Program-made: the position numbers and the translations under genes
Shown here: one piece after another, positions 7,999-31,777 of the stretch
How the letters are laid out: every line of letters starts with the position of its first letter
Numbering within the stretch: the first letter of the stretch is position 1
From: Gemmatimonadales bacterium
GTDB taxonomy: Bacteria > Gemmatimonadota > Gemmatimonadetes > Gemmatimonadales > JACORV01
DNA: 34,810 bases
NCBI GenBank assembly: GCA_030697825.1
Contig: JAUYOW010000099.1
Span: forward strand, 1 to 34,810
Direction of reading: 5' to 3'
Notes under the pieces: generated by a model
What the model was told of the DNA's origin: nothing
Databases searched by the model: none
What the model saw: the letters and a program-made list of their open reading frames with translations, nothing else

Positions 7999-10377
7999 TT
8001 ACGGCCAGTGGGCGTCCCAGCCGCCGTCCTCGTTGGGCTCGTTGTCGGCGGCGGGCGCGCCGGCGCCCTCGGGCCGCCTGATCTCGTAGTTGCGCGGCGG
8101 CTCCATGCCCGCGAGGTAGCGCACGAAATAGTCCCAGCGCCGCCGGATGAAATACGGCTCGGTAAGGCTGTGCGGCCGGTCCGGCGCGATGATGAAGTCG
8201 TAGTCGCGGTTGGCCCGGGTCAGCGCGTTGATGAGCTGTATCGTCATCGCCGGGTGGACGTTGTCGTCCATGTCGCCGTGCATGAGGAGCAGGTGGCCCC
8301 GAAGGTTCTCGGCGAGCGTCTGGTTGGCCGACGCCGTGAAGTTGTCGGTGCGCCGGACCGTGTCGCGCACCAGCAGCCCCTGATACTTCTCGGCCCAGTA
8401 GATGTTGTAGCTGCGGTTGTCGTGGTTGCCGGAGCTGGAGACGGCCACCCGGTAGAAGTCGGGATAGCGCAGCATCGCGTCCGTCGAGGCGAAGCCGCCG
8501 CCCGAATGGCCCCAGATGCCCACCCGGTCGATGTCGATCCAGCGGTAGCGCGCGGCCAGCTGGCGGAGCGCAGCGACATGGTCCGGGAGCCCGTTGTCGC
8601 CGAAGTTGCCGTAGTAGTTGTCGTGGAAGGCCTTCGACCGGAGCGGAGTGCCGAGGTGGTCGATGCGGACCACGATGAACCCCAGCTCCGCGACGGCGCG
8701 CGCTTCGGCACCGCTGCTCCACGCCCAGCGGCCCACGCTCCCCACCTGCGGGCCTGGGTAGATGTTCTCGACGATCGGATAGCGCCGGGTCGAGTCGAAG
8801 TCCGACGGGCGGTACATCACGCCGTAGATGTCGGTGACGCCGTCGCGCGCCTTGGTGGTGAACACCTCACCCGGCGTCCAGCCGAAGGCGGCGAGGCGTG
8901 AGACGTCGGCGGTCTCGAAAGTGCGGATAACGCGGCCGTCGGGCGCCGCGCGCAGCACGGTGACCGGCGGGCGCTCGATCCTCGAGTAGCTGTCCACGAA
9001 GAACCGGCCGTCCGGAGAGAACGTCACCTCGTGGCTGGCATCCTCGGGCGTGATCAGCGTGAGCCCGGTGCCGTCGAAGTTCACCCGATAGAGCTGGGCG
9101 TAGTAGAGCAGCCGGCCCGGCTCGCGGCCCCGGGCGGTGAAGTAGATCTGGCGCGCGATCTCATCCACGTGCGCTACCCAGCCCACGGCCCACGCGCCCG
9201 AGGTGATCTGGTTCTTGAGCCGGCCGTCGGGGCCGAAGCGATAGAGGTGCGCCCACCCGTCGCGCTCCGACCACCAGATCAGGTCCTGCCCGTCGCGCGT
9301 GGTGTACCAGCTGGCCGGGTCTTGGGGGCTGGTCTCGACCCACGTGCGCGCCGAGTCCGCGGCGAGGACGCGGCTTTGCCCGGTGGCGGCGTCCGCTTCG
9401 ATGAGGTAGATGGCCTTGGAGGCGCGGGTCTGGAAGGTGAAGTGCAGCTTCTGCGAGTCGCTGGTCCACAACGAGTCGCGCGGCGTACCGCCCAGGGAGA
9501 GCTGTGCGGGTTGCGCCGGCAGCTCGACCCGTACGGCCTGGCGGCTCGTCACGTCGATCACGTAGAGGCTGGGCTTGGGGATGATGGTGTCGCCGGGCAG
9601 GGCGTAAGGCTGGGTGAACATCCGGGGCCGCTGCGACGTGTAGGAGATGTAGGGCATCAGTCCCACGCCCCGCACGTCCTGGCGGTTCGCGGCGATCCTG
9701 CGGGAGTCGGGCGACCAGCGCAGGTTGGGCGGCCCGCTGGGCCGGCGCCGGAGTTGCTGCTGCGGGCCCGGATCGCCCTGGCCGTACCACCAGTCGCGCA
9801 TGCCGTCGGTGGTGAGCTGCGTCGAGTCGCGCGTGGTGGTGGTGTCTCCCGGGCGGCGGAAGGGCCGCACCCAGACGTTATAGCCGGAGACGAACGCTTC
9901 CGTCGTCGAGTCGGGTGAGACCACGAAGCGGCGACGGTCGGGGAGCGTGTCGCTCACCGTGCAGGCGTACGTGGCCAGCACGCACACGAAGCGCTTGCGG
10001 TTGGCGCTGAACTCGATGGCGCGCTCGTGGTCCGTGAAGCGGAAGCTGGTGAACGGGAGCCGGCCCGGCTCGTAGGCGGTATCTCGCGCCACCGACATCG
10101 CCGCGGCGAGGCGCCCGTTGTCGAACAGCAGCTGGCGGGTGTTACGCACCGGGTCCACTACCACGTACTCGGCGCCGCTGCCGGTCTTGTTGCGGTACCA
10201 GAAGCGCGTCTTGTCCACCATCCAGTTGGGCCGCACCGAGTCGCCGGCCACGATGGGCGATGCGTTCCACGGCAGGAACCGCTCGGCGCGGGTGTAGTCC
10301 ACCTGCTGGGCGGCCAGGATGATGGGGGTGAACGCGAGCACGGCGGCCAGCGTGCAGCTGCGGAGCACGGGTCTCAT
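7999..10377 (-). CDS. S9 family peptidase, dipeptidyl-peptidase IV type
   Basis: The product is 792 residues from ATG 10377; a GTG one codon upstream is equally plausible because GGAGG sits 6 nt before it. Residues 1-23 are a signal peptide (LAAVLAFTPIILAAQQ). A long N-terminal beta-propeller with PD40-like strands (LRWSPDSRRIA, VTFSPDGRFFV) is followed by the alpha/beta-hydrolase domain. The catalytic triad can be placed: Ser625 in GHSGGGF, Asp704 in HGDMDDNVHP, and His736 in DRPHSL. DPP-IV type enzymes remove dipeptides, typically Xaa-Pro, from peptide N-termini in the periplasm. It is transcribed divergently from feoAB and probably monocistronic. Confidence 0.92.
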   Translation of the reverse strand: MRPVLRSCTLAAVLAFTPIILAAQQVDYTRAERFLPWNASPIVAGDSVRPNWMVDKTRFWYRNKTGSGAEYVVVDPVRNTRQLLFDNGRLAAAMSVARDTAYEPGRLPFTSFRFTDHERAIEFSANRKRFVCVLATYACTVSDTLPDRRRFVVSPDSTTEAFVSGYNVWVRPFRRPGDTTTTRDSTQLTTDGMRDWWYGQGDPGPQQQLRRRPSGPPNLRWSPDSRRIAANRQDVRGVGLMPYISYTSQRPRMFTQPYALPGDTIIPKPSLYVIDVTSRQAVRVELPAQPAQLSLGGTPRDSLWTSDSQKLHFTFQTRASKAIYLIEADAATGQSRVLAADSARTWVETSPQDPASWYTTRDGQDLIWWSERDGWAHLYRFGPDGRLKNQITSGAWAVGWVAHVDEIARQIYFTARGREPGRLLYYAQLYRVNFDGTGLTLITPEDASHEVTFSPDGRFFVDSYSRIERPPVTVLRAAPDGRVIRTFETADVSRLAAFGWTPGEVFTTKARDGVTDIYGVMYRPSDFDSTRRYPIVENIYPGPQVGSVGRWAWSSGAEARAVAELGFIVVRIDHLGTPLRSKAFHDNYYGNFGDNGLPDHVAALRQLAARYRWIDIDRVGIWGHSGGGFASTDAMLRYPDFYRVAVSSSGNHDNRSYNIYWAEKYQGLLVRDTVRRTDNFTASANQTLAENLRGHLLLMHGDMDDNVHPAMTIQLINALTRANRDYDFIIAPDRPHSLTEPYFIRRRWDYFVRYLAGMEPPRNYEIRRPEGAGAPAADNEPNEDGGWDAHWP

Positions 10378-10503
10378 CACTGCGATCCTCCGATGGGTCG
10401 GGCGCGCCGCCCCCTGGGGAGGGTGGCGGGAACAAAGTGCAGGGAAAACGAGATCGTAGCTAGTGTACGCTTACGCAGGGAGACGGCCCGCCGTTGCGTC
10501 ATT

Positions 10504-10530
10504 GTGAAGCCTCCTTCATTCTCGCTTCAC
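10504..10530. promoter_or_regulatory. Inverted repeat upstream of feoA, candidate operator
   Basis: Perfect 7-bp arms GTGAAGC (10504-10510) and GCTTCAC (10524-10530) flank a 13-bp centre. The repeat lies 35 bp before the feoA start, between the divergent S9 peptidase and feoAB genes. It is not a recognisable Fur box. It could be an operator or an RNA hairpin in the feoA leader; there is no T-run to make it a terminator. Confidence 0.3.
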
Positions 10531-10564
10531 GGCGGCTTGGCCCCCGGGGTCGCTTTTTTCCTTC

Positions 10565-10834
10565 GTGAACAAGAGCGCTCCCGATTCCCGACCCGCGGCT
10601 TCCGCGCGATCCCTGGCCGAGCTCTCCGAGGGCGACACGGCCTCGGTGGTGACGCTCGATCTGGAGGCCGAGGTCGCGATCCGGCTGATGGAGCTGGGCT
10701 TCATCCCCGGAAGCCGCGTGACGGCCGGGCCCAGCGCGCCGGGCGGCGACCCGCGCGTCTTCCGGGTGGACGGCAGCGAGGTCGCGCTGCGGCGCGAGAC
10801 GACTCGGCACATCGTGGTGGAGGCCGTGTCGTGA
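10565..10834 (+). CDS. feoA: FeoA domain protein, ferrous iron transport accessory
   Basis: An 89-residue product starting at GTG 10565. Residues 16-88 form a FeoA SH3-like domain: SLAELSEGDTASVV, then IRLMELGFIPGSRV, and VALRRETTRHIVVE at the end. FeoA is a small cytoplasmic protein thought to act on the FeoB transporter. Its TGA overlaps the feoB GTG as GTGA, so translation is coupled. No good Shine-Dalgarno is visible before the start, and the upstream 180 bp holds an inverted repeat that may regulate expression. Confidence 0.9.
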   Translation: MNKSAPDSRPAASARSLAELSEGDTASVVTLDLEAEVAIRLMELGFIPGSRVTAGPSAPGGDPRVFRVDGSEVALRRETTRHIVVEAVS

Positions 10835-12723
10835 GCGCCTGTCACACACCGGTGCTGGATACGCCGGCGCGGCGCGGAAAGCGGACCCGCCCGGGCACGG
10901 TGGCGATCGTCGGCGCGCCGAACTCCGGCAAGTCCACCCTCTTCAACCGGCTCACCGGGCTCAGGCAGAAGGTCGCCAACTATCCCGGGGTCACGGTCGA
11001 GCAGCGGGCCGGGACGGTGTCGCTGCGCGACGGTCGCACGATGACGCTGATCGACCTGCCGGGCTCGTACGGGCTCACGCCGCGCAGCGAGGACGAACGG
11101 GTGGTCGAGCGGGTCCTGCACGGCCGCATGCCCGGCATCCCGCGTCCCGACGCGGTACTGCTGGTGCTCGACGCCACCAACCTCGGTCGCAACCTCGCCC
11201 TCGCCGCGCCGGTCCTCGCGCTCGGGCTTCCGACCCTGGTGGTGCTCAACATGGCCGACGAGCTGCGCGCGCGGGGCGGCACGCTCGACACGGCGCAACT
11301 GGCGGCCGAGCTCGGCGCGACGGTCGCACTGGTCAGCGCCACCCGCGGCGAGGGCCTCGATACGGTGCGCCGGTTCCTCGAGGGCACGTTCGCGGTCCCG
11401 GCCCGCATCGAGCTGCCCGTCATCCAGAACGTGCCGGCGTGCCGCCTGTGGGCGGGGCGCATCGCCGACCAGTCGGCCTATCGGGCGCCGGCGCCGCCCG
11501 CTTGGACGCGGCGCCTCGACGCCGTCTTCCTCCACCCCGCCCTTGGCCCGCTGGTCTTCCTGGCCGTCGTGGTCGCGGTATTTCAGGCGATGTTCACCGT
11601 GGCACGGCCATTCATGGACGGCGTCGAAGCGCTCGTCGTCGGCTCCGGCCACTGGATCGGCGCCACGTTGCCTGCATCGATGCTGCGGGACCTGCTGCTG
11701 CAGGGCGTGTGGGCCGGCGTGGGCTCGGTGCTGGTGTTCCTCCCGCAGATCCTGCTGCTGTTCCTCTTCATCGGGATCCTGGAGGACTCCGGGTACCTGG
11801 CCCGCGCGGCGGTCATCACGGACCGCACGATGGCCCGCGTGGGGTTGCAGGGAAAGTCGTTCATCCCGCTTCTCTCGGCATACGCGTGCGCGGTGCCGGC
11901 GATCATGGCCACGCGGACGATCGAGAACCGCCGGGACCGCCTCGCGACGATACTGATCGCGCCGTTCATGACCTGCGCGGCGCGTCTGCCGGTATACACG
12001 CTCATCATCGCCGCCTTCCTGCCGGAGCGGCGGGTGCTGGGGCCGCTGCTTGGCACCCGAGCCGCAGCGCTGCTCGGGCTCTACGTCCTCGGGTTCCTGG
12101 CGGCGGTGGCGACGGCGCGGCTGCTCAAGTCCACCATCCTGAGAAGCGGGCGAGCGCCGTTCATCCTCGAGCTGCCGCCGTACCGCTGGCCCACCTTCCG
12201 CTCCCTCGGCCTGCGCCTCGTCGACCGGGCCAAGATCTTCCTCCTCCGCGCTGGGACCATCATCCTGGGCGTCACCGTGGCGCTGTGGTTGCTGGCGCAC
12301 GTGCCGCTCACCGACGGCCGGGCGCCCGCGATCGCCGACAGCGTCGCCGGGACCTTGGGCCGCGCCGTCGAACCCGCCATCGCCCCGCTCGGATTCGACT
12401 GGCGGATCGGCATCGGCCTGGTGACCTCGCTGGCGGCGCGCGAAGTGATCGTGGGCACGCTCGGCGCCATTCACGGCGTCGAAGGCTCGGAGTCGTCGGC
12501 GGGACTGCAGCAGGCCTTGCGGAAGAACCTGGCGCCGGGCGGCGCCGTGGCGCTCCTGGTCTTCTTCGCGTTCGCCATGCAGTGCGTTTCGACGCTCGCG
12601 GTGGTGCGGCGCGAGACCGGGAGCTGGAAGTATCCGCTGCTCCAATTCACTTACATGCTGACGCTCGCCTATCTGGGCGCGCTCGCGGCCAACCAGATCG
12701 TGGGCCGGCTGGTCGCGAGCTGA
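10831..12723 (+). CDS. feoB: Ferrous iron transporter FeoB
   Basis: This 630-residue protein starts at GTG 10831, set by the GTGA overlap with feoA. The N-terminal G domain shows G1 GAPNSGKST (28-36), G2 within NYPGVTVEQ, G3 DLPGSYGL and G4 as NMADE, the form FeoB uses. The membrane domain has multiple helices and the two Gate motifs, ACAVPAIMATRTI and FMTCAARLPVY, each with its conserved cysteine. The protein imports Fe2+ across the inner membrane. At 630 residues it is shorter than E. coli FeoB (about 770) but within the range of compact forms. A supply of ferrous iron would suit the iron-sulfur-rich benzoyl-CoA reductase encoded further along, though a link is only inferred. Confidence 0.95.
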   Translation: MSACHTPVLDTPARRGKRTRPGTVAIVGAPNSGKSTLFNRLTGLRQKVANYPGVTVEQRAGTVSLRDGRTMTLIDLPGSYGLTPRSEDERVVERVLHGRMPGIPRPDAVLLVLDATNLGRNLALAAPVLALGLPTLVVLNMADELRARGGTLDTAQLAAELGATVALVSATRGEGLDTVRRFLEGTFAVPARIELPVIQNVPACRLWAGRIADQSAYRAPAPPAWTRRLDAVFLHPALGPLVFLAVVVAVFQAMFTVARPFMDGVEALVVGSGHWIGATLPASMLRDLLLQGVWAGVGSVLVFLPQILLLFLFIGILEDSGYLARAAVITDRTMARVGLQGKSFIPLLSAYACAVPAIMATRTIENRRDRLATILIAPFMTCAARLPVYTLIIAAFLPERRVLGPLLGTRAAALLGLYVLGFLAAVATARLLKSTILRSGRAPFILELPPYRWPTFRSLGLRLVDRAKIFLLRAGTIILGVTVALWLLAHVPLTDGRAPAIADSVAGTLGRAVEPAIAPLGFDWRIGIGLVTSLAAREVIVGTLGAIHGVEGSESSAGLQQALRKNLAPGGAVALLVFFAFAMQCVSTLAVVRRETGSWKYPLLQFTYMLTLAYLGALAANQIVGRLVAS

Positions 12724-19673: not shown

Positions 19674-20963
<1,290 letters not shown>

Positions 20964-20982
20964 CGGGTGCTCCAGTACGGGT

Positions 20983-22611
20983 TCAGTCGAGGTGTTCGTA
21001 GGCCGCGATCGTGAGGAACTCGGGGTAGTCCTCGCGGGTCATCATGTCGGTGAAGAGCCTGGCGGCGAGGTCGAACTTCCCGCCGTCGAGCCGCTCCGCG
21101 CCCAGCCGGTCGCGCAGGTGCGCCAATTCCTCCGCCATCGTCTCCTGGACCAGCTCGCGCGTCACCGGCCGGCCGTCGTCGAGCTTGGCGCCGTGGCGAA
21201 TCCACTGCCACACCTGGCTGCGGGAGATCTCCGCGGTCGCGGCGTCCTCCATGAGGTTGTAGATCGGGACGCAGCCGTTACCGCCCAGCCACGCCTCGAG
21301 GTACTGGATCCCAACGTCGATATTGGTGCGAAGCCCGCGCTCGGTGACGGCCCCGGCGTGCGGCATGAGCAAGTCGTGTGAAGTCACGTGGACGTCGTCC
21401 CTGCGGCGCGGGATCTGGTTGGGCGGACGCATGTGCACCTCGAAGACGTCGCGCGCGATCCCCACCAGGCCCGGGTGCGCCACCCACGTCCCGTCGTGGC
21501 CCGCCTTCACCTCGCGCAGCTTGTCGCGCCGCACCTTCTCCAGCGCCCAGTCGTTCTCGTCCGGGTCCCCCTTGATCGGGATCTGCGCCGCCATCCCGCC
21601 CATCGCGTGGATGCCGCGGCGGTGACAGGTATGGATCAGCAGCTGCACGTAAGCGTCGAGGAAGTGCCGGTCCATCGTGACCTGAGCGCGGTCCGGCAGC
21701 ACGAACTCGGCCCGGTTCCTGAACGTCTTGATGAAGCTGAAGATGTAGTCCCAGCGCCCGCAGTTGAGCCCCGCCGAATGGTCCTTCAGCTCCCACAGGA
21801 TCTCGTGCATCTCGAAGCCGGCGTGGATGGTCTCGATCAGCACCGTCGCCCGGATGGTGCCGCGCGGGATGCCGAGGTGGTCCTGCGCCAAGTTGAAGAC
21901 GTCGTTCCAGAGTCGAGCCTCGAGGTGGCTCTGCAGCTTCGGGAGGTAAAAGTACGGCCCCTCGTCGCGCGCGATCTGCTCTTTCGCGTTGTGGAAGAAG
22001 AAGAGCCCGAAGTCGAACAGCGCCCCCGATATCGGGGCGCCGTCGACGAATAGGTGCTTCTCCTGCAGGTGCCACCCGCGCGGCCGTACGAAGAGGACCG
22101 CGGTCTCGGGCTTAAGCTCGTAACGCTTCCCTTCGGGGCCCTGAAAGGAGATCTCGCGGCGGACGGCATCACGCAGGTTGAACTGGCCGTCGAGGTTGTT
22201 GGCCCAGGTCGGTGAGTTGGAGTCCTCGAAGTCGGCCATGAAGACGTTGGCGCCGGAGTTGAGCGCGTTGATGATCATCTTCCGGTCCACCGGACCGGTG
22301 ATCTCGACCGTGCGGTTCTGGAGGTCCTTGGGGATCGGCGCGACGGTCCAGTTGCTCTCGCGGACCTCGCGCGTCTCCAGGAGGAAGTCCGGGAGGGCGC
22401 CGGCTTCGATCTCGCGCTGCCGCGTCGCGCGTCGGGCCAGCAGCTCCTGGCGCCGCCCCTCGAACGTCCGGTGGAGCGCGGCCAGAAAGGCGAGCGCGTC
22501 CGGGGTCAGGACCTCGGCGTGGGCCCCGCTCACCGGACCGCGCAGCTCGAGGCCTCCCTTGCCCAGGGACGCGTTGAGGTCGGCGCGGTGATCGACGGCG
22601 GCGGCGGACAT
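20983..22611 (-). CDS. aceB: Malate synthase A
   Basis: The product has 542 residues, typical of the A isoform. ATG 22611 is chosen because GGAGAG lies about 6 nt upstream; an in-frame GTG nine codons earlier is less likely. The family signature [20 protein letters not shown] is present, as are [12 protein letters not shown] and the catalytic-site region near [16 protein letters not shown]. It condenses glyoxylate with acetyl-CoA to malate. It leads the leftward aceB-aceA-deaminase operon. The 106 bp upstream holds a -10-like TATCTT (22642-22647) with no convincing -35. Confidence 0.97.
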
Positions 22612-22717
22612 CGAGCACTCTCCAAACGGGGACTTCACACGAAGATAGCAAGTTCTGCGCCGGTCCGACTCCCCGTCCTCCAGCCGAACTCCGTCCCGCC
22701 TCGGGTTGCGGGGGCGG

Positions 22718-23161
22718 CTAGGCGGAGAGTCGGCGGGCGGCTTCGGCGAGGCCGGCGGCGCCGAGAAGTTCCCGCGCCATCGGGAAGAGCACCTCGTTCT
22801 CGCGGGCGATGTGGGCTCGAAGCAGGTCCACGATCAGGAGCGCGGCCGTCGCCACTCGCCCCACGTCACCGGCCGCGAGTGCCAGCTCGAGCTGGTGCTC
22901 CAGATCGCGAAGGGTAGTGTGTTCCTCGACGAAGACTGCGGTCGGCGCCTCGCCGCCCAGGAGCGGGAATAGCGCGCGCTCCTCCGCCTCGTTGTGCGCC
23001 TTCACCGCGGTCGTGAGGATCGAGTGGACGGCGTGAGCACCTGCCAGGTGGGGGCCCGCCGGCTCGCCGCGCTGCAGTCCCAGGGCGGCGGTTTCCAGCC
23101 TCGCGAGCGCGTCGAGCGCCTCTTCGTGCTCCGCCTCGAAGCGGCTGAGCGGGTCGATCAC
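22718..23161 (-). CDS. Hemerythrin HHE-domain protein, last gene of the benzoyl-CoA operon
   Basis: A 147-residue four-helix-bundle protein with the ligand set of the hemerythrin family: His12 (EAEHEEAL), His56 and Glu60 ([15 protein letters not shown]), His81 ([10 protein letters not shown]), His117 and Glu121 ([14 protein letters not shown]). Such domains bind a di-iron centre and serve in O2 binding, oxygen or NO sensing, or repair of iron-sulfur clusters (RIC/YtfE group, which has an extra N-terminal ScdA part not present here). Its ATG overlaps the TGA of had as ATGA, so it is translated from the same message as the oxygen-labile reductase. Protection or iron delivery for that enzyme is an inference from position. 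Confidence 0.88.
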
Positions 23162-24180
23162 GGGGTCACGACCCAGCGGATCCCTTCGCCGCGCCGCATC
23201 CGGTCAAAACCCTCGTTGATCTCCCCGAGCGGCAGCGTGCCGCTCACGATGGGCTCCAGGTCGATGCGGCCCGACTCCACGAGCGCCACGATCTCCGGAT
23301 ACTCGCCGCCCCCGCAGCCCAGGCTGCCGCAGATCTCCAGCTCGTAGAACATCACCTTCCCGGCGTTGATCGTGACCGGCTCGCTCGCGAAGCCGATCAC
23401 GCAGAGCCGCCCGCCCTTCCGGATCAGGCTGAACGCGAGGTCGATGGTCTTAGGCGTGCCGACGGCCTCGAAGGCCACGTCCACGCCCCCGTCGGTGAGG
23501 GTGCGGACCTGTTTGTCCACCCGCTCGGTCGCGGCGGGGTTGATCGCGTGCCGCGCGCCGAGCTTCTTGGCGAGTTCAAGGCGCGCCTCGTTCACGTCCA
23601 CCGCGATCACCGTCGCACCCGCCACGACCGAGCACTGGACGACGTTCAGCCCCACGCCGCCGCAGCCCACCACCGCGACCGCGTCTCCGAGTCGGACTTT
23701 CCCGCGGTGCTTGACCGCGTGGAACGGGGTGGAGATCGCGTCGGCGATCACGCAGGCCCGCTCGAGCGGGATGCTCGCGGGCACGCTCACCAGCTCCTTC
23801 GCCGGCGCCACGACGAACTCGGCAAAGGCGCCGTCGGCGTGGTTGCCGGGCATCACCAGGTTGGCGCAGAGGTTCTCGCGCCCCATCCGGCAGAAGCGGC
23901 ACCGCCCGCATGCCCACACCGATGGCACCAGCACGCGGTCGTTGGGCTTCCACCCGTCGGTCCCAGGGCCGAGCGCCGCCACGGTGCCGGCGGCCTCGTG
24001 GCCGAGGACGAGCGGCGGGGTCTTGAAGGTCTTCACCCCGTGGTCGAGGTAGTGGAGATCGGTGTGGCACAGGCCGCACGCGGCCACGCGCACCAGCACC
24101 TCGCCCCGGCCGGGCGTCGGATCGGGGAGCTCGGTGATCTCGAGCGGCCGGCCGGTTCCATGGAACACCGCGGCTTTCAT
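23158..24180 (-). CDS. had: Zinc-type alcohol dehydrogenase, probable 6-hydroxycyclohex-1-ene-1-carbonyl-CoA dehydrogenase
   Basis: This 340-residue medium-chain dehydrogenase has catalytic zinc residues Cys38 (CGLCHTD) and His61-Glu62 (GHEAAG), four structural zinc cysteines (91, 94, 97, 105 in CGRCRFCRMGRENLC) and a Rossmann motif VVGCGGVGLNVVQ. By sequence alone it could be a general alcohol dehydrogenase. Its place in an operon with benzoyl-CoA reductase, Dch and Oah makes it the likely Had, which oxidises 6-hydroxycyclohex-1-ene-1-carbonyl-CoA to the 6-oxo compound with NAD+. ATG 24180 overlaps the stop of the small CxxC protein (ATGA), and its own stop overlaps the hemerythrin start in the same way. 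Confidence 0.85.
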   Translation of the reverse strand: MKAAVFHGTGRPLEITELPDPTPGRGEVLVRVAACGLCHTDLHYLDHGVKTFKTPPLVLGHEAAGTVAALGPGTDGWKPNDRVLVPSVWACGRCRFCRMGRENLCANLVMPGNHADGAFAEFVVAPAKELVSVPASIPLERACVIADAISTPFHAVKHRGKVRLGDAVAVVGCGGVGLNVVQCSVVAGATVIAVDVNEARLELAKKLGARHAINPAATERVDKQVRTLTDGGVDVAFEAVGTPKTIDLAFSLIRKGGRLCVIGFASEPVTINAGKVMFYELEICGSLGCGGGEYPEIVALVESGRIDLEPIVSGTLPLGEINEGFDRMRRGEGIRWVVTP

Positions 24181-24434
24181 GGTTCGCCTCCGCTGCGCGG
24201 CACCGGTTGCCCACCGGGGCCGGGCTGGCGCGTGTAGATCACCTGGAAGCCGAACGCCTGGGCGAGCCAGCACGTCTCGCAGCCGTCGCGCATCGCACCG
24301 CCGGCCTGGTCGCCGGGCCGCGCCGGAACCGACCGCACCTCGAAGCCGGCGCCGGCATAGATCTCCGCCGCCTCCCGGGTGCGCGCGGGGTCAGCGACGA
24401 AGCGCCGCTCCCAGCCGGCGTCAGGCGGCGGCAT
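24177..24434 (-). CDS. Small conserved-looking CxxC protein of unknown function
   Basis: An 85-residue product. Residues 8-36 predict an amphipathic helix and strand (RTREAAEIYAGAGFEVRSVP); then GCETC with Cys52 and Cys55, and a strand FQVIYTR; the last 15 residues are Gly/Pro-rich. I have seen similar short proteins with an EVR...CxxC...YTR layout but cannot name a family. Its start overlaps bzdQ by 14 nt (an in-frame GTG at 24440 has a better GGAAG site and would overlap 20 nt), and its TGA overlaps the had ATG. That tight coupling argues it is a real, translated gene serving the pathway. A metal- or cluster-related role for CxxC is only a guess. Confidence 0.7.
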   Translation of the reverse strand: MPPPDAGWERRFVADPARTREAAEIYAGAGFEVRSVPARPGDQAGGAMRDGCETCWLAQAFGFQVIYTRQPGPGGQPVPRSGGEP

Positions 24435-25245
24435 CGGCACGACCGGCTTCCGCGGCAAGGCGCCGCAGGCGGCGCTGCCCGAGCAGCGCCGCACCGAACG
24501 CCGAGGTGAACTGGACCAGGTCGCCCGGCGGCACGTTGACCGGCGCGCCGAGCGCCTGGCGAGCGACCGCGACCATCCGCTCGAAGCGCAGGATCCCGCC
24601 GATCAGCGTGAACTCCGGCTCCATGCGCACGCGGGTGAGCAGCTGCACCGCGCGGTCCACCAGCGAGGCGATGGCGCCGTGCATGATGTCCGCGGGGGCG
24701 GCGCCCTCCGAGAGCTGGTTGATCACCTCGGACTCCGCGAACACGGCGCAGACGCCGGAGATGGGGACAGGCTGCTTCGAGGTGGCGACCAGCGGGCCGA
24801 TCTCGTCCGTCCCGTAGCCCAGGTAGCGCGCGGTCTTCTCGAGGAACGCCCCGGTGCCGGCGGCGCACTTGTCGTTGAGGCGGAAACTCTGGACCTTGGC
24901 GTCGGCGCCGATCCGGCTGGCCTTCATGGTCTGGCCGCCGACGTCGAGGATGGTCCGCGTGCCCGGGAAGAAATGCGCGGCCCCCCGCGCCGCGGCGGTG
25001 AGGTCGGTGACTTGTGCGTCGCCGAAGGCGGCCTGGTGCCGGCCGAAGCCGGTGGTCACCACGTAGGCGACGTCCGTGCGGGCGAGGCCGGCCTCGTCGA
25101 GAGCGCGCGCGTACGCGCGCTCGGTCGCGGCGGTGAGCTTGAAGCCCGTCGGCTCCATCGCCCGGCCGAGGATCGCGCCGTCAGGGGCGGCGACGACCGC
25201 CTTGGTGTAGGTGGAGCCGATGTCGATCCCGGCGGTGATGGTCAC
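24421..25245 (-). CDS. bzdQ: Benzoyl-CoA reductase ATPase/activator subunit, BcrD/BzdQ type
   Basis: A 274-residue ASKHA-fold protein. The start is GTG 25245, which overlaps the bzdP TGA as GTGA; long in-frame extensions upstream are antisense-like shadow. Motifs: phosphate-1 [34 protein letters not shown] with Cys127, [10 protein letters not shown] with Cys166, and a late GGI. The two cysteines from each ATPase subunit bridge a [4Fe-4S] cluster between subunits in this family. The protein hydrolyses ATP to drive low-potential electrons to the catalytic subunits. The members most like it are BcrD, BzdQ and BadG. Confidence 0.92.
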
Positions 25246-26060
25246 GAGGCGCTCCCCGGGGCGTGGGCGGGCTCGCGGCCGGCCAGGATGCGGTCGAGCG
25301 CGAACAGCGCGGCGCCGAGCCCGCCCATGTAGTGCGAGTCGTCTCCGACGTTCACGCCGAGGCCAAGCCGCTTCTCGAGCGTCACCACCATTGCGCGGTT
25401 CTTGGTCACCCCCCCGGTGAAGGTGACCTGCTCCTCGATCCCGACCCGCCGGAGCAGGCCGATGGACCGCGAGGCGATGGACTCGTGCACGCCGAGCAGG
25501 ATGTCCTCGATCTTCTTGCCCTTGCCGAGCCAGGAGAGCACCTCGGATTCGGCGAACACGGTGCAGGTGGTGCTGATCTTCACGGCGCGCTCTCCCCGCA
25601 GCGCGGTCGGTCCCAACTCCTCCAGCGGGAGCTCGAGCGCCACCGCGGCGGCGCCGAGGAAACGCCCGGTACCCGCGGCGCACTTGTCGTTCATGCAGAA
25701 GTCCACGATCTCGCCCGTGGGCCGGACCCGGATCGCCTTGGTGTCCTGCCCGCCCATGTCGAGCACGGTGCGCGTCAAGGGGAACAGGTGGACCGCGCCG
25801 CGCGCGTGGCAGCTGATCTCGGTGACCTGCGTGTTGCCGAACTTCACCTTGTAGCGGCCGTATCCCGTGCCGACCACGAACTCGATCTGCTCCTCGCGGA
25901 GGTCGCCGTTCGCCAGCGCCTCGGCGTACGCGTGCTCCGCCGCCCGCATCACGTTGGCGCCGGTGTCGGTGAGCGCGCGGCCCACGATCGTCCCGGCCTC
26001 GTCGATCACCACCGCCTTGGTCTGGGTGGACCCGACGTCCACGCCCGCCGCGTAGGCCAT
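25242..26060 (-). CDS. bzdP: Benzoyl-CoA reductase ATPase/activator subunit, BcrA/BzdP type
   Basis: A 272-residue ASKHA ATPase with [42 protein letters not shown] (Cys127), [10 protein letters not shown] (Cys166), and FTGGVTKN. It pairs with BzdQ to form the electron-activating module with a shared [4Fe-4S] cluster. Having two different, both short (about 270 residue) ATPase subunits fits the Azoarcus BzdPQ type; in the Thauera Bcr type one of the pair (BcrA) is much longer. Homodimeric activators of 2-hydroxyacyl-CoA dehydratases come as one gene, so a pair argues against that. ATG 26060 has GGGAGGAG at about 8 nt and follows bzdO by 15 nt. Confidence 0.93.
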
Positions 26061-26075
26061 GGCCGGCTCCTCCCG

Positions 26076-27377
26076 CTACCCCATCGCCGCGGCGGCCTGG
26101 TGCCGCCGCGCGGCGAGCCCCTCGAAGAACGCATCGGCGCGGTTCTTCATCTGCGCCTCGGACACGACGCGCCGGTCCATCAGGTCGGACTCGACGAACA
26201 GGCTCGGCACGTCGCGCACCGCCATGAGGGCCCGGCGGGTGTCGGCGAGCCCCGTGGACACCGTGCGGCAGCTCTTGATGGGATGGAAGACGACGCCGTC
26301 CGCCGCGAAATCGTCCACCATCCCGACCAGCGTACGGGTCTGGAAGAACATGTTGTCCATCGCGTCGCGGACGCCGATCAGCACGCCCTCGGCGAGGCTC
26401 TCGAGCGGCCGCGCCAGGTCGTAGACGAAGCCGAGGTTCGCCCCGCCCGAGGCGAACGCGAGGTAGGTGGAGTTGACGAACACGCCGCCCCAGTCCGTGA
26501 ACAGCTCGGTGAACCGGCGGAAAATCGGGTAGCACGGCACCCCCACGAAGATCAGGCGCCACTTCTCGTCGGTCGTGGTGCCGATGCCGTGCGCGGCCTT
26601 GTGCCCCATCTCCTCGACCAGGTCGCGGAAGAACGCCGCGCCCTCCGCGGTGCCCCGGAACCCGTTGGCGACGCCGAGGTAGATCGTGCCGTCGGAGAGC
26701 GCGTTGAAGACGGCGGGGCGGGTCCGGTTCAGCTCCAGCACCCGCCGCCAGCCGTCGCTCATCACGTTGGCGTGCCCCAAGTGCTCGCGCAGCCGGTCGT
26801 TGTCGAAGCGGACGCCCGACACCCGCTCGCACAGCGCGATCAGCTCCCGCAGCTGGGCCTCGACGTACCGCCGGTCGCGCTCGAAGTCGTCGGTGCCGGG
26901 CGGCGACGCCAGCCCGGCTCCCCGCGAGCCGGGCACGTCGAGCGTGAACATCGGCATGCCGTACATCCGCTCCCAGATCTCGCCCCACTTCACGTAGGTG
27001 TTGCACGCGTTGGTGCACACGGCCAGCGCCGGCTTGGGGATGGTCCCCATGGGATGCGCGCCGCCGCGGAGCTGCACGGCGACGTCGGCCTTCACGTAGC
27101 CGCAGATGTCGGTCGAGTAGCCCTGGTTCTCCGCCTCGTTCAGGTACTCGTGCGCCACGCGGCGGACCGCGGTCTGCAGCGAGTTGATCTCCGGGAACAC
27201 GATCGGGAAGTCGAACACCCGCAGCAGCTCGCAGAGGCTCCCCATCACGAACACGTAGGCCGCCCCGCGGCCCTCGGCCGCCGCCCGCCCCAGCCCCTGG
27301 AACCATTCCCGGAACAGCCGGGCGCCGGCCTCGTTGCCGCGCCCGACGATCCCGGTCTCCTGTCGCGTGCCGTCCAT
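26076..27377 (-). CDS. bzdO: Benzoyl-CoA reductase catalytic subunit, BcrB/BzdO type
   Basis: The protein has 433 residues, close to the BcrB/BzdO length. It belongs to the 2-hydroxyacyl-CoA dehydratase D-component family (HGD-D), which binds [4Fe-4S] clusters. Candidate ligands are Cys49 (GSLCELLRVFDFP), Cys92, Cys121/Cys125 (CTNACNTYVKWGEIWER) and Cys370 (IKSCRTVS). With BzdN it forms the module that reduces the aromatic ring of benzoyl-CoA to cyclohexa-1,5-diene-1-carbonyl-CoA. ATG 27377 follows the bzdN stop by 8 nt. The order of the two catalytic and two ATPase genes matches bzdNOPQ and bcrCBAD. Confidence 0.92.
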   Translation of the reverse strand: MDGTRQETGIVGRGNEAGARLFREWFQGLGRAAAEGRGAAYVFVMGSLCELLRVFDFPIVFPEINSLQTAVRRVAHEYLNEAENQGYSTDICGYVKADVAVQLRGGAHPMGTIPKPALAVCTNACNTYVKWGEIWERMYGMPMFTLDVPGSRGAGLASPPGTDDFERDRRYVEAQLRELIALCERVSGVRFDNDRLREHLGHANVMSDGWRRVLELNRTRPAVFNALSDGTIYLGVANGFRGTAEGAAFFRDLVEEMGHKAAHGIGTTTDEKWRLIFVGVPCYPIFRRFTELFTDWGGVFVNSTYLAFASGGANLGFVYDLARPLESLAEGVLIGVRDAMDNMFFQTRTLVGMVDDFAADGVVFHPIKSCRTVSTGLADTRRALMAVRDVPSLFVESDLMDRRVVSEAQMKNRADAFFEGLAARRHQAAAAMG

Positions 27378-27385
27378 GGTCCGCC

Positions 27386-28576
27386 TCAGTCGAAGAGGAG
27401 GTTCTCGACGAACGTCTCCAGCTGGATCTCCAGGCCGTCGAAGCTCGTCATGTTCTCCTCGAATTCGCTCACGAAGTACGGTATGCCGCGCTGGTCCAAC
27501 GCCCGGGTGTACACCACCAGCTCCTCGAGGCCCGGCTCGCACATCTTCGCGGCCATGAGGATGGCCGCCTGCGCGCCGGAGCGCTCGAGGCGCTCGAGCA
27601 ACATCCGATCCTTCGGCTTGCGAAGGTCGTGCTGCACCGGGCTGTGCGCCGACCGCTCGATGTACGACTCGGCCAGCGCGAGGAGCGGGTCGCCGCCGTC
27701 GGGCACGTCCTCCGTCAGCCAGCGCAGGCCGATCAGCAGGTCGTCGTCCACCACGTAGCACGACCGGGCGATGGCGCGGATGAGGTCCAGCGGCGGCTGC
27801 TCGCAGAAGCCGCCCTCGAGGACGACGCGGATCTTGTCCCGGCGCGGCGCGGCGCGGGCCTCGAGCAGGGGCAGCACCGCGCGGAGCAGGTCGTTGTGCT
27901 CCTCGCGCTGGACGAGGCCGGCGATCGCCGTGAGCACGTACGCCTCGTCGGCCGAGACCAGCCACGGCCGGTCGCGCTTGAGCGCGTACAGCGCGCGCAG
28001 CAGCGCGCGGTTCTCGTTGAAGATGCGGATCGAGCGGCGGAGGTCGTCGTCGCCGATCGGCCGGCCGGCGATCCCGGCGATCACGGTCCGCACCCGGTCG
28101 TACTCGTCGCGCAGGTACCGCGTCGCGAACGCCGAGTTGGGGTTCTGCGGCAGATAGAGGATCCGGCACGGGTAGGGGAAGTTCCGGCCCCAGACGCCGG
28201 CCAGGTTGCGCGCCGCGTCGCAGATCGGGTGGGTGACGAACAGGTCGAGCTCGACCCGCCCGCTCAGGGCCAGCTCGAGCGAGGTCTTGAGGATCGAGCA
28301 GAGGTAGGAGCCGAAGTGCGACTCGGCCAGCGTGGTCTCGACCGGCGCGCCGCGGACCTTGAACGGGAGCAACCCGGCCGCGTGCGCGATCTCCTCGGGG
28401 AAATAGACCTGGAAGTGGCCGACCACCTTGCCGCCGGACTCCCGCCAGCGGCGCACCGTGGGGAAGTCGGTGTCGTCGAACAGCTCGCGGCAATGGTAGA
28501 GGACCTCCTCCAGCCCGCAGCCCCGCCACTCCGGGAAGAGCGGTGTCGTCAGGCGCTCCCTGGCCGGTGCGGTCAC
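27386..28576 (-). CDS. bzdN: Benzoyl-CoA reductase catalytic subunit, BcrC/BzdN type
   Basis: A 396-residue member of the HGD-D family. I choose GTG 28576: it overlaps the dch stop as GTGA, like other junctions here, and GGAG lies 6 nt upstream. ATG 28588 (four codons longer) has no ribosome site. Candidate cluster cysteines are Cys93 (SYLCSILKTSLELAL), Cys119 (THPICDAARN) and Cys346 (AAKMCEPGLEEL), the spacing expected of this family. FPEEIAHAAGLLPFKVRG is the conserved N-terminal region. It partners BzdO in ring reduction. Length agrees with BcrC/BzdN (about 380-390 residues). Confidence 0.92.
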   Translation of the reverse strand: MTAPARERLTTPLFPEWRGCGLEEVLYHCRELFDDTDFPTVRRWRESGGKVVGHFQVYFPEEIAHAAGLLPFKVRGAPVETTLAESHFGSYLCSILKTSLELALSGRVELDLFVTHPICDAARNLAGVWGRNFPYPCRILYLPQNPNSAFATRYLRDEYDRVRTVIAGIAGRPIGDDDLRRSIRIFNENRALLRALYALKRDRPWLVSADEAYVLTAIAGLVQREEHNDLLRAVLPLLEARAAPRRDKIRVVLEGGFCEQPPLDLIRAIARSCYVVDDDLLIGLRWLTEDVPDGGDPLLALAESYIERSAHSPVQHDLRKPKDRMLLERLERSGAQAAILMAAKMCEPGLEELVVYTRALDQRGIPYFVSEFEENMTSFDGLEIQLETFVENLLFD

Positions 28577-29340
28577 GCGTGGCTCCATGCCGGCCGCCGC
28601 CGTTCGGTGAAGGCGCGCAGCCCTTCGAGCGCGTCGGCCGTCGCCATGACGCCCTCCAGGTACAGCCGGCCGGCGCGGCGCATGGCGTCCGGCCGGGGCA
28701 GGGTGCGACCGGACCGCAACGCCTCCTTGGCCAGGCGCAGCGCGGCCGCGCTGTGCCGCGCGATGCGCTCGGCGGTGCGCAGGGCCTCCGTTTCGACCTC
28801 CGCGTCCGGCGTGACGCGCCACACCAGGCCGGCCCGCTGAAGGTCGGCGGCGCCGAGGGAATCGCCGGTGAAGACCAGGTGGGCGGCGACCCCGGCGGGG
28901 ACGAGCGCGGGGAGCAGCGCGCAGGCGGCCGGCGGGATCACGCCGAGCGTGATCTCGGGTTGCGCGAAGACCGCGCCTTCGCCGGCGACGATGAGGTCGG
29001 CGGCCTGCACCAGCTCGAACCCGCCGCCCAGGCACCGGCCGCGAACGGCGGCGATCACCGGCAGCGGGAACGCGTCGAGCGCCGCCACCGTGTCGAGGAA
29101 CTCGGGGATGAGCTCGGCGTGGTGCGGCGGCAGGTGCTCGCCCACGTCGGCACCCGCGGAGAAGTGCTTGCCCGCGGCGGTCAGCAGGAGCGCTCTCAGC
29201 GAGCGGTCGGCCGCGAGGCGGCGGAGCTCCTCGCGGAGGCACGCGAGCACGTCGCGGGTGAGGATGTTGACCGGCGGATGGTCGAGCACCAGGCGCGCGA
29301 CGCCGTCCGCCACGCTCGCGGTGACGCCGACGCCGCTCAC
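28573..29340 (-). CDS. dch: Crotonase-family hydratase, probable cyclohexa-1,5-diene-1-carbonyl-CoA hydratase
   Basis: A 255-residue enoyl-CoA hydratase/isomerase, matching the size of Dch. GTG 29340 overlaps the SDR stop as GTGA; the upstream in-frame extension is antisense shadow. The oxyanion-hole segments are KHFSAGADVGEHLP (61-70) and RGRCLGGGFELVQAADL (100-116). Dch adds water to the conjugated diene made by benzoyl-CoA reductase, giving 6-hydroxycyclohex-1-ene-1-carbonyl-CoA. The EH motif after the first oxyanion segment and the direct linkage to bzdN support Dch over a beta-oxidation hydratase, but the family is broad. Confidence 0.85.
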   Translation of the reverse strand: MSGVGVTASVADGVARLVLDHPPVNILTRDVLACLREELRRLAADRSLRALLLTAAGKHFSAGADVGEHLPPHHAELIPEFLDTVAALDAFPLPVIAAVRGRCLGGGFELVQAADLIVAGEGAVFAQPEITLGVIPPAACALLPALVPAGVAAHLVFTGDSLGAADLQRAGLVWRVTPDAEVETEALRTAERIARHSAAALRLAKEALRSGRTLPRPDAMRRAGRLYLEGVMATADALEGLRAFTERRRPAWSHA

Positions 29341-30053
29341 GGGCCGTCCACCCCGAGCAGCTGCCCGCCGTCGATCGGCAGCACGGCGCCGGTGATGAAG
29401 CCCGCGTCGTCGCCGCACAGGAACCGGACGGCCGCCGCGATCTCCTCCGGCCGCCCGGGCCGTCGCATCGGCGTGCGCGCGATCGCGCGGGCGCGCCACT
29501 CGTCCGGGAGGGTGCGCGTCATCGCGGTGTCCACGAAGCCGGGGGCGACGACGTTGACGGTCACGCCGTCGCTGGAGAGCTCGCGCGCCAGCGTGCGCGC
29601 CAGCCCGACGAGGCCGGCCTTGGACGCGGCGTAGTTGGCCTGGCCGAACCGTCCCCGCAGGCCGTTGACCGAGCCGATGAAGACCAGCCTACCGGAACCG
29701 GAGCTGCGCAGCGCGGCGGAGGCGGCGCGGGCGGTGACGAACCCGCCCGTCAGGTTCACGGCGATCACCTCGGCCCAGTCGTCATCCGACATCTTCCAGC
29801 TCACATGGTCCCGCACGATGCCCGCGGCGCAGACGACCCAGTCGATCCCCTGCCGCTCGCCCACGACCTGTTGCACCGCGCGGCCGATGCTCGCGGCGTC
29901 CCGGACGTCCGCCTCGACGGCGAGGCTGGCGTCGCCGGGGCCGTCCGGAAAGGCGAGGTCGAGCGCGGCGACCCACGCGTCCGGCGCCAGCGCGCTCACC
30001 ACCGCGCGGCCGATGCCGCGCCCTCCGCCGGTTACGAGAGCGGTGCGCCGCAT
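29337..30053 (-). CDS. Short-chain dehydrogenase/reductase (FabG-like) in the benzoyl-CoA operon
   Basis: The product has 238 residues and is a classical SDR: TGGGRGIG (8-15), Asn100, Ser128, Tyr141 and Lys145 form the cofactor and catalytic set. Asp32 at the end of the second strand favours NAD(H) over NADP(H). ATG 30053 is fixed because the TGGG motif begins seven residues later; it overlaps the end of oah by 22 nt. SDRs are not among the four core steps, as the zinc dehydrogenase can fill the Had role. It may oxidise 3-hydroxypimelyl-CoA after ring opening, or be an alternative Had. Confidence 0.85.
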   Translation of the reverse strand: MRRTALVTGGGRGIGRAVVSALAPDAWVAALDLAFPDGPGDASLAVEADVRDAASIGRAVQQVVGERQGIDWVVCAAGIVRDHVSWKMSDDDWAEVIAVNLTGGFVTARAASAALRSSGSGRLVFIGSVNGLRGRFGQANYAASKAGLVGLARTLARELSSDGVTVNVVAPGFVDTAMTRTLPDEWRARAIARTPMRRPGRPEEIAAAVRFLCGDDAGFITGAVLPIDGGQLLGVDGP

Positions 30054-31084
30054 GCGCCACAGAACCGGTGGGACGCCGGCAGACTGGTCGCGCCGCACGC
30101 GGCGCACGCCGTGACGGGGGCACCCCACGGCGCCTCCGATGACCCGCCCTCCGCCGCGCGCTGGCGCAGCAGCGCGTACCGCGCGGGCCGCTTCTCCACG
30201 AACGCTTGCATTCCTTCGACCGGCTCCCAGCAGGCGTAGTGCAGCGACAGCCAGTCCTGCGCGTGCCGCACCGTGGCGCTCCAGGCGAGGTCCTTCCAGA
30301 AGTTGGTCTGCTGCTTGGTGTAGCGGGTGCACTCCGGGAACGACGCCAGAAGCTTCCCCGCCAGCTCGTCCACGAACCCGTCGAGCCGCGAGAGGTCGAT
30401 GGAGTAGCCGTCCTCGCGGCGTTGCGCCTTCTCGATCTGCTCGGCGGTCGCGGCATCGATCCACTCCTCCCCGCGCCGGACCGACGGCACGACCCAGTTC
30501 ACCAGGCCCCACTCCGCCGCCTTGGGGGCGGGGATGGGCTCGTTGAGGAACAGGATCTCTCGCGCCCGTTTGTCGCCGACCACCAGCGGCAGCCACTGCG
30601 TCGCGCCACCGCACGCGACCGAGCCGACGTGCGTCCCGACCTGTTTGATGTAAGCGTGCTGAGCCATCACCGAGAGGTCGCAGGCGAGCTGGCTCTCGTT
30701 CCCGCCGCCCACCGCCATGCCGTTGATACGCGCCACGACCGGCTTGCCGGTATTGAGGATGCTCTCGATGTAGGCCCGGAACAGCGCCATGTACTTCCAG
30801 TAGTCGCGCGGCGCCCCCACGTAGCTCGCGGCGTACTCCTTCACGTCGCCGCCAGTGCAGAAGGCGCGGTCGCCGGCGCCGGTGAAGACGATGACGCCGA
30901 CGGCGTCGTCGAAGGCGGCGTCGCGGAAGGCGGCCGCCAGCTCCCCCAGCGCCGAGGTCGAGTAGGCGTTGTAGTGCCGCGGGCGGTTGATGGTGATGCG
31001 CGCCACGCCGTCATGCTTCTCGTACAGCGTCTCGCGGAAGGCGAAGGCGTCGGCGGGCCGGGAGGGGAAGGCGCGTGCGGTCAT
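30032..31084 (-). CDS. oah: 6-oxocyclohex-1-ene-1-carbonyl-CoA hydrolase with a C-terminal zinc ribbon
   Basis: A 350-residue crotonase-fold protein. The core (about 1-310) reads like Oah/BzdY: ITINRPRHYNAYSTSALGEL, CTGGDVKEY, NGMAVGGGNESQLACDLSVM, QVGTHVGSVACGGATQWLP and KQQTNFWKDLAW near the end. Oah hydrates and opens the ring of 6-oxocyclohex-1-ene-1-carbonyl-CoA to 3-hydroxypimelyl-CoA. Residues 327-345 add a zinc ribbon, C-x2-C-x11-C-x2-C, joined by a short linker; I do not recall this in the characterised enzymes. It is the first enzyme gene after tetR (3-nt gap). ATG 31084 gives the expected N-terminus. Confidence 0.92.
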   Translation of the reverse strand: MTARAFPSRPADAFAFRETLYEKHDGVARITINRPRHYNAYSTSALGELAAAFRDAAFDDAVGVIVFTGAGDRAFCTGGDVKEYAASYVGAPRDYWKYMALFRAYIESILNTGKPVVARINGMAVGGGNESQLACDLSVMAQHAYIKQVGTHVGSVACGGATQWLPLVVGDKRAREILFLNEPIPAPKAAEWGLVNWVVPSVRRGEEWIDAATAEQIEKAQRREDGYSIDLSRLDGFVDELAGKLLASFPECTRYTKQQTNFWKDLAWSATVRHAQDWLSLHYACWEPVEGMQAFVEKRPARYALLRQRAAEGGSSEAPWGAPVTACAACGATSLPASHRFCGACGAPLS

Positions 31085-31087
31085 GGG

Positions 31088-31705
31088 TCAGTCACCGGTG
31101 AGGCCGGCCACCAGGTGGTCGGCGAATTGGGTGCCCAGCTCAGGGGCCTGGATGTCGCCCTCCGGACGGTACCAGCGCGCGATCCAGTTGATGGCGCCCA
31201 GTATCGCGAAGGTCGCGATCTTCGGGTCCGCCGCCCGGAACTCCCCGCCGCGCATCCCTTCCTCGACGATCGAGCGCACCCCGCGCTCGTACCGGTCGCG
31301 GGCGGCCACGACCTCGGCGTGGTGGGGCGTGGAGAGCTCCGTCACCTCGATGGCGAGCGGCGAGCCCTCGAGCGTGTCCGTCATCACCCGGACGTGCTCG
31401 CGCACGATGTGCCGGAGGCGGTCCCGGGCCCCGTCGAACTCGGCCCGCGCCTCGCGCAGGATGCGCTTCAGCTCCGCCAGCGCCTCGAGGTGGCAGGCGT
31501 AGAGGATCGCTTCCTTGTCCGGGAAGTAGTGGTAGAGGGCGGTGCGGCGAACCCCCAGCTCCTCGGCGATGTCGTCGAGGGTGGTGGCGTGGTAGCCCTT
31601 GCGCCGGAAGGCGCGGAGCGCCGAGTGCAGGATGTGGGTGCGCCGCCGCTCGCGTTTCTTGAGGATGTGCGGGGACGCGGTGGGGCGGGCGCGCAGCTGG
31701 GGCAT
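31088..31705 (-). CDS. TetR/AcrR-family transcriptional regulator of the operon
   Basis: The product has 205 residues. Residues 19-68 are a TetR DNA-binding domain (RTHILHSALRAFRRKGYHAT, LDDIAEELGVRRTALYHYFPDKEAIL). The rest is a helical ligand-binding domain, of the kind that in related regulators binds acyl-CoAs. ATG 31705 has GGAG about 8 nt upstream. It is the promoter-proximal gene, 3 nt before oah, so it must be co-transcribed with the pathway and is probably autoregulatory. A benzoyl-CoA or later CoA-ester inducer is an inference. Known anaerobic benzoate systems use BzdR (Azoarcus) or BadR/AadR (Rhodopseudomonas), which belong to other families. Confidence 0.92.
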   Translation of the reverse strand: MPQLRARPTASPHILKKRERRRTHILHSALRAFRRKGYHATTLDDIAEELGVRRTALYHYFPDKEAILYACHLEALAELKRILREARAEFDGARDRLRHIVREHVRVMTDTLEGSPLAIEVTELSTPHHAEVVAARDRYERGVRSIVEEGMRGGEFRAADPKIATFAILGAINWIARWYRPEGDIQAPELGTQFADHLVAGLTGD

Positions 31706-31740
31706 GCCGAACTCCGAGTGGCGCGGTCGGAATTGAACTC

Positions 31741-31759
31741 TCAGTAAATATTCTACTCA
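31741..31759. promoter_or_regulatory. Candidate TetR operator, 19-bp imperfect palindrome over the -10 box
   Basis: Read on the minus strand the site is TGAGTA, 7 bp, TACTGA; six of nine positions pair around the centre. An ACTGAG hexamer is also directly repeated (31756-31761 and 31740-31745), flanking the -10 box. A 19-bp palindrome with short arms is normal for TetR-family operators. Its overlap with the -10 box of the tetR promoter would allow simple repression. Confidence 0.5.
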
Positions 31760-31777
31760 GTCGTCAAGTTTTGTCAA
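31750..31777 (-). promoter_or_regulatory. Sigma-70-type promoter of the tetR-oah-bzd operon
   Basis: On the minus strand, TTGACA (31772-31777, perfect -35) is followed after 16 bp by TAGAAT (31750-31755, one mismatch to TATAAT). The -10 box lies about 45 bp before the tetR ATG. It stands out in this GC-rich window as a short AT-rich patch. No other convincing promoter is seen down to the end of the operon at 22718, because genes overlap throughout. Confidence 0.65.

Follow-up and report, generated by a model that had tools for sequence, protein, structure and literature searches.

Class I reductases of the benzoyl-CoA type consist of two HGD-D subunits and two different ASKHA ATPases encoded in one operon. 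Three described subclasses serve for comparison here: the 3-methylbenzoyl-CoA reductase (MBR) type, represented by MbdNOPQ (PDB 9G87/9GAI) and its mbd cluster in Aromatoleum (Azoarcus) sp. CIB, the BZD type (BzdNOPQ, PDB 8S02), and the BCR type (BcrCBAD, TIGR02263). The MBR enzymes named in the literature that we consulted come from Thauera and Aromatoleum, and such gene sets are known from bacteria that degrade 3-methylbenzoate. Earlier papers describe class I reductases in Chloroflexota and other uncultured lineages too (PMC5736913, PMC6472368), and one sentence of an earlier paper mentions benzoyl-CoA degradation genes in metagenome-assembled genomes of Gemmatimonadota (PMC10581226). Here, we analyse an operon in a stretch of 34,810 nucleotides from a Gemmatimonadales bacterium (contig JAUYOW010000099.1, hereafter the window, at its full length), for which we establish the gene content, the reductase subclass, the host phylum, the conserved cofactor residues and the recurrence in other genomes. 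The operon very probably serves the oxygen-independent breakdown of a benzoyl-CoA-type thioester and is centred on an MBR-type class I reductase.

Operon layout and reductase subclass

The host bin of this contig (C99) has 3.37 Mb and is 98% complete. The minus strand of the window carries, at positions 22718-31705, a single tight operon of 11 co-directional genes in the order tetR-oah-SDR-dch-N-O-P-Q-orf-had-hemerythrin. From the first gene to the last, and then the flank:

31091..31705, minus strand: TetR-family regulator, first gene (Pfam TetR_N and TetR_C_24)
30032..31084, minus strand: Oah-like paralogue of 6-oxocyclohex-1-ene-1-carbonyl-CoA hydrolase with a C-terminal zinc ribbon (best match TIGR03200)
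29337..30053, minus strand: FabG-like SDR dehydrogenase (sequence family match)
28573..29340, minus strand: Dch-like cyclohexa-1,5-diene-1-carbonyl-CoA hydratase (best match TIGR03189)
27386..28576, minus strand: N, reductase subunit, MbdN-type (gamma; identity to MbdN and tree)
26076..27377, minus strand: O, active-site subunit, MbdO-type (beta; identity to MbdO and residue mapping to BzdO)
25242..26060, minus strand: P, ASKHA ATPase/electron activator, MbdQ-type (alpha; identity to MbdQ)
24421..25245, minus strand: Q, second ASKHA ATPase, MbdP-type (delta; identity to MbdP)
24177..24434, minus strand: orf, small CxxC protein of 85 amino acids, MBR-linked (family profile)
23158..24180, minus strand: Had-like protein (best match TIGR03201)
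22718..23161, minus strand: hemerythrin (HHE) protein, last gene (PF01814)
19674..22638, minus strand: flank, malate synthase (20983-22638) and isocitrate lyase (19674-20963), by Pfam

Every junction within the operon is an overlap or a gap of at most 15 nucleotides (nt). SDR/dch, dch/N, P/Q, orf/had and had/hhe overlap by 4 nt, Q/orf by 14 nt and oah/SDR by about 22 nt, whereas tetR/oah, N/O and O/P are separated by 6-15 nt. The original prediction had the genes in these places, on this strand and in one direction of transcription, but described the ring-opening enzymes as downstream; oah, SDR and dch in fact precede the reductase genes. Its reductase inventory held: PF06050 finds two HGD-D proteins (206 and 196 bits) and PF01869 two different BcrAD_BadFG ATPases (211 and 178 bits), and each ATPase has the activator cysteines Cys127 and Cys166, which would bridge a [4Fe-4S] cluster. 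This is the composition of a class I reductase. The grouping recurs: in MBR loci of sufficient length, N is followed by homologues of O (67/68), P (66/66) and Q (59/59), which excludes chance association.

All four subunits match MBR structures best. N reaches 535 bits and 59% identity with MbdN (9G87 chain B), against 128 bits with HadC and 112 with BzdN, and O reaches 510 bits and 52% with MbdO, against 99 with HadB and 86 with BzdO. P is closest to MbdQ (396 bits, 69%) and Q to MbdP (285 bits, 52%), so that N-O-P-Q corresponds to MbdN-MbdO-MbdQ-MbdP, which corrects the earlier naming. In a maximum likelihood tree of N with MBR, BCR, BZD and 2-hydroxyacyl-CoA dehydratase rows, N falls inside the MBR group (35 rows including the PDB MbdN; support 100/100). 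BCR (99/99) and BZD (99/97) form separate groups, BCR being the nearest sister of MBR. HadC and DCCP sit on long branches, which leaves their exact position unsure, but the MBR group excludes HadC. As a check on the reference rows, representatives of the BCR rows score over the TIGR02263 cut-off and those of the BZD rows over that of TIGR03190; N itself has 258 bits with TIGR02263, under the 421-bit cut-off for BCR. The subunit phylogeny, chosen in advance as the check that could overturn the prediction, thus placed N with class I enzymes of the MBR group and not with the dehydratases.

Given these structure matches and the tree placement, the reductase is by sequence subclass an MBR-type class I enzyme, and not of the Thauera aromatica, Azoarcus bzd or Rhodopseudomonas type to which the route had first been likened. 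We reject a BZD-type assignment on the scores, the tree and the missing BzdN cysteines described below. On the scores and the tree we also reject a 2-hydroxyacyl-CoA dehydratase type, N and O not being closest to HadBC. The N query matches a single place in the host genome; a BadF match on another contig (C19) was considered as a second reductase and rejected, since its surroundings showed no HGD-D partner.

Like the window, the mbd cluster of strain CIB has a TetR regulator and upper-pathway genes after the reductase step, but the window operon lacks its ferredoxin, ligase and transporter genes. The BZD type has the superfamily and the ATP-driven logic in common with the window, but its N subunit is only 28% identical. 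With the BCR type, N shares Cys258 and Cys273, but P has 272 amino acids and is not of the long BcrA-like form found in the Gemmatimonadota loci L115-L118.

We mapped cofactor residues on BzdN and BzdO (PMC11971306). The three cysteines of the active-site cluster are present in O: in the alignment, Cys92 and Cys125 are the counterparts of BzdO Cys95 and Cys128, and Cys370 is in the column of the KSC/RGC cysteine that all rows have. Glu63 of O, unchanged throughout the MBR and BCR rows, is placed by the alignment one column off the catalytic Glu65 of BzdO. At the position of BzdO His131, the window (Tyr128) and 113/113 readable relatives have Tyr, whereas MbdO and BCR have Phe. The [8Fe-9S] double-cubane cluster of BzdN is held by cysteines 36/73/100/263/293/327; three of these six align, N Cys93/119/346 with BzdN Cys73/100/327, and equivalents of 36, 263 and 293 are not in N. 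Since Cys258 and Cys273 are common to MBR and BCR, and Cys137 is an extra cysteine of MBR rows, a second cluster of N could possibly be held by other means.

Host and distribution

The host is a member of the Gemmatimonadota: separate bins of its genus contain this operon or a more divergent form of it, and the flanks of the operon are native. N is 85% identical in a bin of the same genus (G005), the operon of which lacks the SDR gene, and 72% identical in the same family. On the downstream side, the flank keeps 72-83% identity in genomes of the same genus, family and order. In another congener (G004), the same chromosomal site is occupied by O-P-Q-had-hhe-aceB-aceA. The earlier remark that the surroundings are not proteobacterial was therefore correct, and a chimeric contig is disfavoured. 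In the G004 locus (L190, contig C119, 4-3161), P (63% identical to MbdQ) and Q are more divergent than in the window, and N and most of O lie beyond the contig end.

The extension of this pathway to the Gemmatimonadota stands as far as the host phylum goes, but class I reductases of the phylum are not confined to this genome, and there is the earlier mention cited above. Among 394 genomes of this Gemmatimonadota class, 48 (12%) encode an MBR-type N, defined by 60% identity or more. Weaker relatives of N occur at 34-43% identity in 17 genomes and at 28-29% in 3, and the members tested among these groups are of BCR and BZD type. A scan of named genomes returned 338 relatives. The best 80 of these, the loci that we analysed, come from Gemmatimonadota, Chloroflexota, Acidobacteriota, Marinimicrobia, Planctomycetota, Eisenbacteria and others (record labels, some possibly misbinned), with MBR-type reductases in at least six phyla. 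The gene order had been thought unfamiliar; tetR-oah-(SDR)-dch-N is in fact found in 15 of the 80 loci. Genome searches at class and family level did not pick up the Thauera/Aromatoleum mbd cluster, and a plasmid collection yielded no MBR. No paper that we found attributes enzymes of the MBR type to these phyla or mentions the orf, subscription literature being mostly outside the search. The MBR subclass is now seen well beyond Thauera and Aromatoleum, and if the enzymes work as predicted, uncultured soil, groundwater and marine lineages would hold much potential for ATP-driven anaerobic degradation of aromatic compounds.

Other subclasses accompany MBR in the phylum. One Gemmatimonadota chromosome (G093, bin118; L120, 3302-19001) has two of them side by side: its MBR-type N-O-P-Q-orf is directly preceded, on the upstream side, by a complete cluster of the BZD type, in which Had and Oah are bona fide and ferredoxin-like and large flavoprotein-like genes were identified by eye. 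A genome of the window's own family (G002; L118, 6720-15332) has a BCR-type cluster, which at 425 bits passes the 421-bit cut-off of TIGR02263 and in which Oah and Had are bona fide; by these scores it is a third class I subclass in Gemmatimonadota. In loci L115-L117 (Gemmatimonadota f2/f3), N-O-P-Q is BCR-like and its P has the long BcrA-like form, and dch and had were not found nearby.

Proposed pathway and competing explanations

Each reaction given here is a prediction from the genes, and so are the substrate (benzoyl-CoA or a 3-substituted form) and expression without oxygen. The aryl-CoA would be formed by a benzoate-CoA ligase encoded outside the operon, and the host genome has a protein of this family (667 bits, cut-off 375). 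Reduced ferredoxin would come from 2-oxoacid:ferredoxin oxidoreductases, of which the genome encodes two alpha/beta pairs (KorAB-type) and a pyruvate:ferredoxin oxidoreductase. The P/Q dimer, with its [4Fe-4S] cluster bridged by Cys127/Cys166, would push electrons into N/O with ATP, and the [4Fe-4S] cluster of O would reduce the ring to a cyclic 1,5-diene. Dch would then hydrate the diene, Had oxidize the alcohol and the zinc-ribbon Oah open the ring, after which the SDR may begin beta-oxidation, possibly as a 3-hydroxyacyl-CoA dehydrogenase. The adjoining isocitrate lyase and malate synthase (glyoxylate cycle) could assimilate the acetyl-CoA, and TetR is probably a repressor until it binds an acyl-CoA.

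The recurrence of the MBR module across phyla supports this pathway, and several observations weigh against it. The candidates for the steps after ring reduction score far below the cut-offs of their best NCBIfam models: 209 bits against 464 for Oah (TIGR03200), 182 against 292 for Dch (TIGR03189) and 250 against 339 for Had (TIGR03201). The operon has no ferredoxin or aryl-CoA ligase gene, and the genome encodes aa3-type and cbb3-like oxidases. In two loci (L050 and L120), MBR stands beside a complete BZD cluster and may therefore use a different aryl-CoA. The original prediction had named Dch, Had and Oah candidates and a full route to 3-hydroxypimelyl-CoA; the matching models are indeed the best ones, but the proteins are divergent paralogues. 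Because of their low scores, the pathway assignment rests on gene slots and context.

This context is informative. The Oah-like proteins linked to MBR have 71 invariant positions in common with bona fide Oah, the C-terminal part included, and 28/28 of these proteins carry the C-terminal zinc ribbon; the Had-like protein has the zinc-site residues of bona fide Had. In three clusters of sister Gemmatimonadota (L038, L092 and L112), MBR and Dch stand beside over-cut-off Had (396-461 bits) and Oah (495-556). Dch and TetR of the window have orthologues (67% and 65%) in the BZD cluster of L120, where Had and Oah are bona fide; the Dch of that cluster also falls under the cut-off (193 bits). These clusters suggest that the Oah-like and Had-like genes of the window occupy the same slots as the bona fide ones. 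Since the window's N, O, Oah, Had and Dch are all below the cut-offs of the curated models, cut-off-based annotation would miss such pathways.

The substrate may differ from benzoyl-CoA itself. The operon might act mainly on substituted aryl-CoA (3-methyl-, 3-hydroxy- or halobenzoyl-CoA), with the divergent Oah, Had and zinc ribbon tuned to that ring. We consider this variant of the proposed pathway a serious contender, if on balance not quite the expected outcome: MBR is the closest characterized enzyme, the MBR-linked Oah is a subfamily of its own, and the BZD cluster next to MBR in L050 and L120 would already process benzoyl-CoA. Yet MBR beside bona fide Had and Oah in L038, L092 and L112 suggests ordinary benzoyl-CoA, which Mbd enzymes also convert in vitro (PMC4424350). 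A microaerobic or biosynthetic role (cyclohexene-carbonyl-CoA units) in place of anaerobic catabolism would fit the terminal hemerythrin, the two oxidases and the FabG-like SDR. It seems improbable to us given the ring-opening Oah-like enzyme, the adjoining glyoxylate-cycle genes, the benzoate-CoA ligase encoded elsewhere and the oxygen sensitivity of class I reductases. Gemmatimonadota are known mostly as oxygen-respiring, and the metabolism of this host looks facultative.

The remaining explanations question the locus itself. That the contig is chimeric or misbinned, its operon coming from another phylum, might be thought from the similarity to G005 DNA, which stops at the operon borders, and from a GC content slightly higher in the operon than in its flanks. 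The operon genes at the same site in G004 and the identities of N and of the downstream flank among relatives make this very unlikely. Hardly credible at all is a 2-hydroxyacyl-CoA dehydratase with its activator and no aromatic role: the superfamily is the same (PF06050, PF01869), and 2-hydroxyisocaproyl-CoA dehydratase (HadBC) and its activator share the HGD-D and BcrAD_BadFG domains with the window. However, HadC is just 26% identical, with scores far under those of MBR, and falls outside the MBR group. The HadBC system also has neither ring-opening genes nor a second, different ATPase subunit, whereas the window has two different ATPase genes and Dch-, Had- and Oah-like neighbours.

Small CxxC protein, regulation and neighbouring genes

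The orf matched no Pfam or NCBIfam family. It has the motif GWxRRF...LY..G.EV...CxxC...IYTR, and a profile of its family finds it in 41/59 MBR loci, in most cases no more than 200 nt behind Q; the BCR and BZD loci examined with this profile, some of them short, have none. In the class sample, it is present in 38/48 MBR genomes and 0/346 others (Fisher p = 5e-44, related genomes not being independent). By this distribution, the orf is a member of an undescribed small protein family tied to MBR. Its AlphaFold model is beta-alpha-beta-alpha-beta (mean pLDDT 78), for which Foldseek gave nothing below E 1 against the PDB. From its invariant W, CxxC and TR, the protein may function in binding or in connection with a cluster. 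We give even chances that the orf is a fifth, subclass-specific component of MBR in uncultured phyla, as an electron-transfer, cluster-assembly or oxygen-protection partner. This MBR-linked protein is a concrete new target.

Orthologues of the TetR regulator (57-70%) are the first genes of MBR clusters and of one BZD cluster in Gemmatimonadota. Palindromes of the form TTTGAAC-N-GTTCAAA recur upstream of tetR in L038, L040, L044, L045, L073, L084 and L120 and are likely the TetR operator. A search of the window with the putative operator TTCAAAWTTTGAA gave a single chance-level match, away from the operon. Just upstream of the window's tetR, we noted by eye a degenerate palindrome, GTAGAATATTTAC.

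The hemerythrin gene is in the same position in L036, L053, L093, L095 and G004. Elsewhere in the window, positions 10027-12720 encode an FeoB-like ferrous iron transporter of 898 amino acids with a long N-terminal part, FeoB_N starting at residue 291.

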